From Methylophilales bacterium (GTDB lineage Bacteria; Pseudomonadota; Gammaproteobacteria; Burkholderiales; Methylophilaceae), in NCBI GenBank assembly GCA_021414145.1, contig JAIOOY010000077.1:1-38462 (forward strand): a stretch of DNA of 38,462 bases, in the 5' to 3' direction. A program made the translations under genes and the position numbers. The notes beneath the pieces were generated by a model, which had not been told where the DNA came from, did no database searches, and was given only the letters and a program-made list of their open reading frames with translations. Positions 4,442 to 7,466 of this stretch are shown in pieces. Numbering within the stretch: position 1 is the stretch's first letter; each line of letters opens with the position of its first letter.

Positions 4442-5374
4442 TTACTGTGTAGCTTCTTGATAGGTCAGTTGCACGAATACTTCTTCTAGACTGGTTTGGT
4501 CTGGCGTGATCTGGTGCAAGCCCCATTTTTTCTTGACGGCAGTTTCCACGATGCGCTCGGCTGGGTTTTCGCCCACTGCGTATTGCACTCGCAGCAATCC
4601 ATCTTGCACAGCAGTCACGCTCACCACCCCGCTGATTTTCTCGATCTCATCCAAGCTTGGAGCGTTACTCAAACCCAGCAATAATTTGTTCCCTTGGCGT
4701 TGTTGCTTGAGTACGTCTATGCCACCGTTAAATACCAGCTGACCCTTGTGGATAATCTGCACGTGGTCACATACCATTTCCACTTCAGGCAGAATATGCG
4801 TGGACAGAATCACGCTGTGTTCGCCGCCCAGTTCTTTGATTAGCGCTCGGATATCACGAATCTGACTGGGATCCAAACCCACTGTTGGTTCATCCAGAAT
4901 CACCACCATAGGGTTGTGAATGATGGCTTGAGCAATACCCACGCGCTGCTGGTAGCCTTTGGAGAGGTTATCAATCAGGCGTCCGCTCATTTCGGTGAGG
5001 CCGGTACGCTGCTTGGCAATATCTACGGCTTTTTTGAGGTGCTTGCGCGTGACACCGTGCAATCTGCCCGCCAGTGCCAGCATTTCATCTACGGTGAGCT
5101 CTTTGTAAAGTGGTGGCTGCTCCGGCAAATAGCCAATAAGCGCCTTGGCCGCTTTTGGATTTTCAATGATGTCTATTCCGCAGATGTTGACGCTGCCGGC
5201 AGTCGGTGCCAAGTTGCCGGTGAGCATCTTCATGGTGGTGGATTTACCCGCGCCGTTGGGGCCCAAGAAGCCCAGTACTTCGCCTTTGTTCAGGCTAAAA
5301 CTTACGTCGCGCACCACAGTGTTGTTGCCATAGGTGCGAGTAAGCTCGCTGGCTTCGATAGTTACAGTTGTCAT
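4442..5374 (-). CDS. ABC transporter ATP-binding protein (GldA-like)
   Basis: Cytoplasmic ATPase of the transporter. Walker A GPNGAGKST lies at about residues 38-46, the signature region is NLSKGYQQRVGIAQ, and Walker B is VVILDEPTVGLDP. An H-loop follows in ILSTHILPEVE. A C-terminal extension of about 80 residues is typical of the CcmA/NatA-type ATPases that drive ABC-2 permeases. I chose the ATG at 5374; an in-frame TTG two codons upstream (5380) is possible, and neither has a strong ribosome binding site. It is the first gene of the five-gene minus-strand operon. Its promoter must lie between 5375 and the repeat element ending at 5461, or inside that element. Confidence 0.94.
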   Translation of the reverse strand: MTTVTIEASELTRTYGNNTVVRDVSFSLNKGEVLGFLGPNGAGKSTTMKMLTGNLAPTAGSVNICGIDIIENPKAAKALIGYLPEQPPLYKELTVDEMLALAGRLHGVTRKHLKKAVDIAKQRTGLTEMSGRLIDNLSKGYQQRVGIAQAIIHNPMVVILDEPTVGLDPSQIRDIRALIKELGGEHSVILSTHILPEVEMVCDHVQIIHKGQLVFNGGIDVLKQQRQGNKLLLGLSNAPSLDEIEKISGVVSVTAVQDGLLRVQYAVGENPAERIVETAVKKKWGLHQITPDQTSLEEVFVQLTYQEATQ

Positions 5375-5460
5375 AATCAATACAGACTAAATCTCAAGTT
5401 AAGAGGCGCTAAAAACTGCTGGTCTTGTAGCAAGTTACGCAGGGCGCATATACTATAGGT

Positions 5461-5729
5461 AACCTCTAATGAAGTCCACCATGAACCGCGTTGCTATGAA
5501 GAATGAGATGACCGCTAGGCGCACGTCGCAGGTCGTACTGGACGTACGAAGCCAAGACGTGCAACGCCGCGAGCGCTCATTCTTCATAGCAACCCTTCGG
5601 GACAAGGTTTTGCGGGCGATCTGCTGCGTCAGGCTCCTCATGAATGGAATAACCATTCATTTCGTCGCCTTCCTTGCGTCTCATCCCGCAAAGCCTTTGT
5701 CGCGGTCACGTTGGACTTCATTAGAGGTT
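5461..5729. repeat. 269-bp inverted-repeat element able to form a three-way junction
   Basis: This lies in the 409-bp gene-free stretch 5375-5783. The ends are perfect 18-bp inverted repeats (5461-5478 with 5712-5729). Pairing continues inward with one bulge and two mismatches to 5490/5701. Directly inside are two further hairpins. The first spans 5491-5592 and closes with a perfect 17-bp stem (5491-5507 with 5576-5592). The second spans 5601-5700 and closes with 5601-5616 against 5685-5700. It contains an inner 8-bp hairpin at 5640-5660 with loop AATAA. Open frames of 101 aa (plus) and 67 aa (minus) across it look non-coding. I see no transposase and no clear target duplication. A MITE-like or BIME-like element, or a structured RNA, is possible. 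Confidence 0.85.
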
Positions 5730-5783
5730 CCTGAACATTCTGCTTGCGCCACGGTCGAAGCTGCACACTCTTAGGAAATCCCG

Positions 5784-7466
5784 ATGAAAAAAACTCTTTC
5801 TATCCCGCTGATTTTGGCCGTTTTGTTATCTTCTACCAGCTTTTCAGCCTTTGCTGCCAGCGACAAAAAGGCCACTCCCGATGCAACACTGAGTGCCGAA
5901 TTCATTTTTAAGTTCCTAGTCGGTGAAATCGCCGGTCAGCGTGGCGATGTGAGTTCCGCCAGCGCGATACTCTACGACTTGGCGAAATCCACTGGCGATG
6001 CGCGTCTAGCCGAACGGGCCACCCGTGCCGCGCTGTATATTAAGCAAGGCCCGATGGCGCTGCAAGCGGCCACCCTGTGGGCAGAGCTAGATCCGAGCGC
6101 AGCAGAGCCGAAGCAAATCGTAACGCAATTACTACTAGCCTCGGGAAAACTGGCTGACCTGCGTCCGCAGTTACAAAAAATGCTGGCAGAAGAAACTAAT
6201 CGCGCCGCTGGATTTATGTACATTGCCGGGACCTTGTCTCGCAATCAAGATAAAGCGCAGACCTTGCAATTTATACAGGAATTAGCCAAGCCCTACCCGA
6301 ATCTGGCGGAGGCTCACTTTGCTGTGGCCCACGCTGCTTGGAGTGCGGGCAACGAGCAACTGGCCTTGAGTGAGCTCAAGGCCGCCGACAAGGCCAAACC
6401 CGGATGGGAGATCGGTGCCTTGTTACACGGGCAGATTCTGCAATCACGCCCCATAGAAGCGCTCCATTTTTATGAGACCTACCTCGTCACTTACCCCGCC
6501 AGCCTTGAGGTCAAACTAGCCTACGCCAAATTGCTGGTGAACGAAAAACAAATGGACGCAGCACGTCAGCAGTTTGAGCAACTACTGGAAGCCAAGCCAG
6601 AGAGTCCGGATATCCACGTCGCGATTGGGTTGTTGAGCGTGCAGGCGGAGGATTTGAGCAGCGCTGAGAACCACTTCAAACAGGCTTTGGAGTTGAATTA
6701 CAAGGATATCGATCAGATTCGCTTTTATTTGGCGCAAATTAGCGAACAGATGCAACAGGTTGAGGAATCCAAAAAATGGTATGAATCCATCAACCCAGAC
6801 AGTCGCTTCTACCTTGAAGGTCAGCTCAAAATGGCTGTGGGCGAGGCTAAAATGGGTCTTCTAGAAGATGCGCGGAATCGTCTACACAACATCCCTAACC
6901 TTAGCCCTGAGCAACAAGTGTTAGCCATTCAGACAGAGGCATCGTTGTTATCACAAGCCAATCGCCATGAAGAAGCATTCAACTTGCTGCAAAACGCCGT
7001 CGCCAATTACCCCAATAGCCCGGACATTGTGTACGACTACGCGATGGTATCTGAGCGCGTAAAGCGCTTTGACATCATGGAACATGAGCTGCGTAAACTG
7101 ATGTTAATGAAACCCGATTTTGCTCAAGCCTATAATGCCTTGGGTTACACCTTAGCCGAACGCAACGAGCGCTTGGACGAGGCGCAAAAACTTATTGAAA
7201 AAGCACTGGCGCTTACCCCCGATGATCACTTCATCTTGGATAGCATGGGCTGGGTGCATTACCGAATGGGCCGGTTAGATCAGGCGCTGGATTTCATCAG
7301 ACGTGCTTATGACAACCAGCCGGATCCAGAAATCGCTGCGCATCTGGGTGAAGTGTTATGGCAGCAAGGCAAACATGAGGAAGCTATCAGCACTTGGGAC
7401 GCAGCATTGCGCGACTATCCCGACAACGAAGTTCTCGTCAATACCGCGAAAAAATTCCATCCGTGA
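5784..7466 (+). CDS. Exported tetratricopeptide-repeat protein
   Basis: A 560-aa protein with an N-terminal signal peptide (charged MKKTLS, hydrophobic core to about residue 24, cleavage near AFA-AS), followed by TPR-like helical repeats through nearly its whole length. Clear TPR consensus runs include AYNALGYTLAERNERLDEAQ and ILDSMGWVHYRMGRLDQALD in the C-terminal third. It should be a periplasmic or outer-membrane-associated scaffold. Proteins of this type directly before lolB are common in Betaproteobacteria, but no precise function is known to me. AGGA lies 9 nt before the ATG. The stop overlaps the lolB start as TGATG, so the two genes are translationally coupled. Confidence 0.9.
   Translation: MKKTLSIPLILAVLLSSTSFSAFAASDKKATPDATLSAEFIFKFLVGEIAGQRGDVSSASAILYDLAKSTGDARLAERATRAALYIKQGPMALQAATLWAELDPSAAEPKQIVTQLLLASGKLADLRPQLQKMLAEETNRAAGFMYIAGTLSRNQDKAQTLQFIQELAKPYPNLAEAHFAVAHAAWSAGNEQLALSELKAADKAKPGWEIGALLHGQILQSRPIEALHFYETYLVTYPASLEVKLAYAKLLVNEKQMDAARQQFEQLLEAKPESPDIHVAIGLLSVQAEDLSSAENHFKQALELNYKDIDQIRFYLAQISEQMQQVEESKKWYESINPDSRFYLEGQLKMAVGEAKMGLLEDARNRLHNIPNLSPEQQVLAIQTEASLLSQANRHEEAFNLLQNAVANYPNSPDIVYDYAMVSERVKRFDIMEHELRKLMLMKPDFAQAYNALGYTLAERNERLDEAQKLIEKALALTPDDHFILDSMGWVHYRMGRLDQALDFIRRAYDNQPDPEIAAHLGEVLWQQGKHEEAISTWDAALRDYPDNEVLVNTAKKFHP

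Follow-up and report, generated by a model that had tools for sequence, protein, structure and literature searches.

Between the divergent genes for an ABC ATPase (4442-5380, minus strand) and a TPR protein (5784-7466, plus strand), the 38,462-nt stretch of Methylophilales bacterium DNA analysed here (the window) contains a gene-less palindromic segment, and the question raised by this locus is what kind of element it represents. An earlier note had described a 269-bp inverted repeat at 5461-5729, folding as a precise three-way junction, and had listed a non-autonomous mobile element, a BIME-like extragenic repeat and a structured RNA among the candidate explanations. The analysis points with high confidence to the first of these, a gene-less type II MITE inserted at YTAR and folded as a covarying branched palindrome, with an IS5-family transposase presumably acting in trans. 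At the sequence level, this reading draws on the scatter of copies over genomes, the duplicated targets, the sites found empty in relatives, the ends held in common with IS5-family elements and the conservation of branched pairing.

The window copy and its predicted fold

The element described earlier is real, and comparison with relatives extends it by two bases at either end (to 5459 and 5731). Over their full length these 273 bases can be aligned with 31 further, diverged copies, and their predicted fold is a contiguous three-way junction, as had been claimed. The locus comprises the following features:

5459-5731, plus strand: whole element (probable MITE copy), hairpin 1 followed by hairpin 2; from the alignment with diverged copies, limits by comparison.
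5459-5490, plus strand: left outer arm and terminal inverted repeat, beginning GTAACCTCTAATGAAGTCC... (GGAACC in other copies); from fold, arm pairing and alignment.
5490-5593, plus strand: hairpin 1, with an 18-bp perfect closing stem (5490-5507 with 5576-5593); from fold and covariation.
5591-5600, plus strand: linker, a CCC-TTC-GGG mini hairpin; from the fold, CCC...GGG being retained in most aligned copies.
5600-5700, plus strand: hairpin 2, stem of the type CTTTGCGGGCG... / ...CATCCCGCAAAG; from fold and covariation, with a related hairpin in a 160-bp element of genome G031.
5700-5731, plus strand: right outer arm and terminal inverted repeat; from fold, arm pairing and alignment.
5446-5457, plus strand: GCATATACTATA block immediately preceding the point of insertion and shared, as a conserved feature, with G001, G002 and G025; it includes a possible -10 sequence, TATACT (5449-5454).

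The near-complete pairing ascribed to the outer arms was borne out, as 5461-5484 and 5706-5729 are 92% complementary and the outermost 18 pairs are unbroken in the fold. The closing stem of hairpin 1 pairs perfectly, as stated, over 18 bp rather than 17, and the 8-nt linker is present, with a very small hairpin, CCC-N-GGG, predicted in it. The doubt that such pairing could arise by chance was upheld when both strands were folded, the MFE being -139.3 kcal/mol for the plus strand (z -10.93) and -147.7 kcal/mol for the minus strand (z -12.21), with 0 of 200 shuffles as good in either case. The 101-aa ORF in the window had no match in Pfam.

Copies, insertion sites and a candidate transposase

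The earlier observation that the window holds no second copy extends to its own genome (G000; 1.45 Mb, 72% complete), where the window copy is the only full one found. Two full copies and a remnant at the orthologous site are present in G002, a genome of the same genus, and pieces of the element lie on 16 contigs of G024, from another genus of the same family. The single contig of G214 carries 14 copies (11 uninterrupted and 3 interrupted), and G194 has at least 20 near-full places. In a survey of the order (E 1e-5 or better), relatives were found in 24 of 399 sampled genomes, the own genome included, spread over 13 families and 15 of 159 genera; most matches were about 67-77% identical, and, with two candidates scored per genome, the survey gives no copy numbers. 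The earlier note had suggested a search of relatives and had taken a lone copy as evidence against its proposal; relatives hold many copies.

A scan of genome contigs with the linker pattern gave 55 matches in 52 stretches, the records including Nitrosospira sp. Nsp14, Nitrosovibrio tenuis Nv1, Thiobacillus, Gallionellaceae and Sulfuricellaceae, as well as one assigned to Wenzhouxiangella by its record label alone. Terminal arms were found in 43 of the 55 matches, three of these 43 being dismissed as false, and were not found in 4 of 28 order copies. No plasmid matched the window copy, and a Comamonas plasmid showed one 59-nt match to another copy (L094); phages queried with L105 and IMG/VR scanned with the linker pattern gave no matches.

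The sequences bordering the copies carry signs of transposition. Flanking 4-mers were identical at 27 of 76 sites (shuffled mean 7.0, maximum 16 in 1000 shuffles), and YTAR stood on both sides at 35 of 76. Because the element ends had been picked with some weight on equal flanks, the count was repeated with the ends placed without regard to flanking sequence. This blind count gave identity at 22 of 78 sites (shuffled mean 5.6, maximum 15 in 1000 shuffles) and YTAR on both sides at 29 of 78. The target type is a 4-bp duplication of YTAR (CTAA, TTAG, TTAA, CTAG). The excess of identical flanks is clear, and the majority of non-identical flanks (49 of 76 in the first count, 56 of 78 in the blind count) is expected of old copies; no target duplication was found at the window copy. 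An empty site, which the earlier note had proposed seeking in related strains, is present in both G001 and G025, where it follows the GCATATACTATA block also seen immediately before the element in the window. At the orthologous site of G002 about 26 nt of the element are left, and the lost part has TGAAC at both borders, which suggests a slippage deletion.

Isolated ends were also observed. Solo 18-bp ends with no partner end nearby occur in G024 at C7:1548, C173:8236, C184:4105, C128:13563 and C6:876, often preceded by CTAA, TTAA or similar; one is located just upstream of what we take to be an RNase PH-like gene, and another coincides with the start of a presumably helix-turn-helix-like gene. 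At G000:C65:15900-15945 and G002:C12:11985-12030 two ends in tail-to-tail arrangement, with TTTAG or CTAG at the centre, form a 30-bp palindrome (AATCAGAGGTTCCCTAGGGAACCTCTGATT in G002) that is conserved between both species.

The position of the copies relative to genes bears on a different explanation, in which the element would be a host-domesticated regulatory or terminator repeat of the BIME/REP kind and not a transposon. Compared with naive ORF calls, 47 of 60 sites lie between ORFs, 12 within one and 1 at an edge, and the 47 divide into 21 between genes of the same direction, 15 convergent and 11 divergent; the predominance of inter-ORF sites, the convergent sites among them and the location of the window copy, with the conserved TATACT block on one side and the start of the TPR gene on the other, would suit such a repeat. 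The earlier note had also considered that the element may insulate or drive the transcription of its neighbours; a consensus scan of 5340-5800 returned no promoter and no terminator. TATACT at 5449-5454 may be the promoter of the TPR gene, in which case the element forms the 5' leader of that gene, and the window copy is probably an old copy with this placement. Still, the element has 4-bp target duplications of its own, 12 of the 60 sites fall within ORF calls, all three gene arrangements occur and the sister genome G002 retains only the remnant of about 26 nt at this site, which together make this explanation very improbable. The BIME-like option of the earlier note does not suit a single unit of 270 bp flanked by such duplications.

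The mobile-element reading is strengthened by the ends of the element, which recur in IS5-family insertion sequences. Full-length IS5-family IS with 4-bp duplications in G244 and G064 have ends identical to those of the local element at 18 and 16 of 18 bases, respectively, and matching ends were found beside transposase pieces in G257 (18/18), G410 (16/18) and G072 (16/18), the G072 IS end agreeing at 18/18 with the elements of its genus-mate G194. The agreement with the local element is 12/18 only in G024 and G061; among the seven genomes with GG-type ends, five thus share 16-18 of 18 bases and two share 12, and the observed sum for own-genome pairing of IS and element was reached or exceeded by 16 of 5040 permutations. 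In G127 an IS matched the local element at 7/18, and a search with the G127 end pattern found its own element alone and no IS with that end. The proteins L178 and L174 score 323.7 and 344.3 bits against the NCBIfam IS5-family model NF033581 (cut-off 140), and the IS5-family transposases also match Pfam DDE_Tnp_1 and DUF772. Relatives of this transposase were not found in 19 of 27 genomes, including G000, G002, G194 and G214, although G194 and G214 are rich in copies of the element, and a PF01609 search of G000, G002 and G031 returned none. A G024 transposase picked up through Pfam (L072, which we take to be IS1182-like) was rejected as partner, since its inverted repeats differ from those of the element.

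As is characteristic of MITEs, the element is short, non-coding and multicopy, is bounded by terminal inverted repeats whose sequence recurs in an IS, duplicates its target and is missing from the corresponding site in some relatives. Its dispersed copies, 4-bp duplications, empty sites and ends in common with IS5-family elements favour the non-autonomous mobile element among the options of the earlier note. We infer that an IS5-family transposase moves it; the enzyme would bind and cut the element ends in trans, and insertion at YTAR would give rise to the 4-bp duplication.

Paired arms across lineages

From 68 copies collected, 40 remained under 90% identity and 32 (259-280 bp) were aligned, six being left out by length and RL135 (288 bp) and RL145 (different ends, GAGTCTATTTCGG...) by name. 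L145 (Nitrosomonadales NC_groundwater_72, about 1100-1400), a 270-bp relative outside the alignment, has a quite different end, GAGTCTATTTCGGTAGG. The alignment spans 291 columns with a mean column identity of 73%, and a structure of 89 pairs was built from Watson-Crick complementarity alone. Standard pairs occupy 92.3% of 2807 cells (shuffled 79.7%), two-sided change occurs at 69 of the 89 pairs (shuffled 34.1) and in 339 cells (shuffled 84.7), and the covariation score is 0.365 (shuffled 0.132), with 0 of 500 shuffles reaching the observed value in each case; slid controls were 36-41% paired. Both kinds of control overstate the contrast, since one alignment of related sequences served to derive the structure as well as to score it, yet the margin is still large. 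Pairing is found in 96.3% of the cells of helix 1, the outer arm. Both arms are replaced in each lineage (e.g. GGAACCTCTGATTAAGTC, GGAAGCCCTGAACAAGTC, GGAACCACTGATTTATTC, GAGCGTGTTCACAATCTC in G127 and CAGGCTGTTGAAGAACCC in G065), and the fold is kept although the element ends vary between lineages. The compensatory changes that the earlier note had proposed looking for are hence abundant, and its second argument against the proposal, loss of pairing without compensation, does not apply.

Strong covariation and a fold that is very stable on both strands would also follow if the element were transcribed and its three-way junction were an RNA fold under selection. G·T and A·C mismatches were counted on a strand-neutral structure at four thresholds, giving G·T:A·C ratios of 67:108 (loosest), 68:92, 56:70 and 36:43 (strictest), against 76:58, 67:33, 48:28 and 35:18 under the same procedure for RNase P RNA, taken from 22 of these genomes, this control being taken in place of tRNA, for which there were 3 tRNAs only. 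G·T never exceeds A·C, unlike in RNase P, and the plus strand consequently bears no RNA signature. The A·C excess, 108 to 67 at the loosest threshold, would correspond to minus-strand G·U pairs, but this tilt is weak and belongs to the loose thresholds, the strictest favouring no strand (p 0.50). Rfam yielded two chance-level matches below gathering for the window region and none for 14 loci, and the copies lie beside genes in either orientation. A selected RNA fold is therefore unlikely; the structured-RNA option finds no support on the plus strand and keeps a small probability on the minus strand. For RNA-discovery pipelines, the family is a caution that mobile DNA can yield covariation this strong.

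Alternatively, the pairing could be a matter of mutation bias alone, with template switching between the long inverted-repeat arms transferring changes and no selection involved. L138, L144, L165 and L120 share a 32-nt insert on the 5' arm of hairpin 1. In L163 and L108 (identified by k-mers), as well as in L139, L142 and L173 (by eye), the mirror position on the 3' arm holds the reverse complement of this insert, suggesting transfer of sequence between the arms. Compensatory change in RNA genes has been attributed to template switching (PMC8794818). Among the copies looked at, none had the insert in both arms' versions. Arm-to-arm copying should, however, erase internal loops, and some of these are unpaired yet conserved (e.g. 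CAAGG opposite GACGCAG). In addition, the ratio of two-sided to one-sided changes among 11 copies of G214 is 6:4 for shared changes and 3:28 for private ones (p 0.003), as would be seen if copies with broken pairs rarely had descendants; the same pattern could also arise if older changes had longer to be copied. The G194 copies (0:1 shared, 4:9 private) do not repeat it, and pooling of both genomes gives p 0.014 for events that are not independent. A purely mutational origin is accordingly a serious contender that falls somewhat short of an even chance, and selection and template switching are possible causes of the maintained pairing, alone or together.

Returning to the type II MITE, its inside is a conserved branched palindrome (outer arm, two hairpins and CCC-N-GGG linker) whose arms change together. 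Most likely they do so because the folded DNA, as a cruciform or single strand, matters for propagation, helped by arm-to-arm template switching. A more far-reaching version is offered tentatively and is itself rather doubtful: selfish DNA that depends for its propagation on a conserved DNA three-way junction and keeps this shape up by its own arm-to-arm copying, its core passing between IS5 end types and growing by palindromes taken into the hairpin tips. Should selection act on the pairing as DNA, the family would offer a naturally occurring collection of sequences, rich in covariation, from which to study DNA secondary structure, as well as data on the survival of long palindromes in bacteria.

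Relation to known elements

Several variants of the architecture were observed. G031 contains 160-bp single-hairpin MITEs with GGAACCTCTGAA ends (L088-L090; C7:65029-65188, C41:11282-11442 and C42:14630-14790). These share with the window element the ends and a hairpin resembling hairpin 2 (CGGGCGGTCTGC...CATCCCG), but are without hairpin 1 and form no junction; they are possibly a simpler sister family. Extra palindromes are found in hairpin tips or arms in G024 on C96 (L076, 371 bp), C165 (L075, 501 bp) and C15 (L026), L170 carries two related palindromic inserts, and nested palindromic modules with related sequences occur in the tips of hairpins 1 and 2.

No description of this element family was found in the literature, of which subscription papers were poorly covered. 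REP/BIME sequences bear a Y1-type signature. Unlike these, the element is a single unit of 270 bp, makes target duplications of its own and has a DDE-type signature, and the 20-40 bp units in alternating arrays by which REP/BIME are recognised are not seen. It has in common with them (PMC2817692, PMC3733652) an extragenic location, palindromic sequence and many copies per genome. With IS5-family IS (NF033581) the element shares the end sequences and a YTAR-type 4-bp duplication, whereas these IS are about 1.2 kb long and encode a DDE transposase, and the element is gene-less and different inside.

The closest likeness is to type II MITEs of prokaryotes, e.g. Chunjie and QMITE, which in the accessible part of the review PMC10969869 are short and gene-less, with terminal inverted repeats, target duplications and stable stem-loop folds, and have ends in common with an IS and insides unrelated to it; all of these properties recur here. 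The same part of that review holds no case of a homologous, covarying three-way junction across 13 families whose ends follow the local IS. Since the ends track the IS in this way, ideas on how type II MITEs arise can be put to the test, and what is new relative to the known systems is an IS5-linked type II MITE family with an unusual covarying three-way junction.
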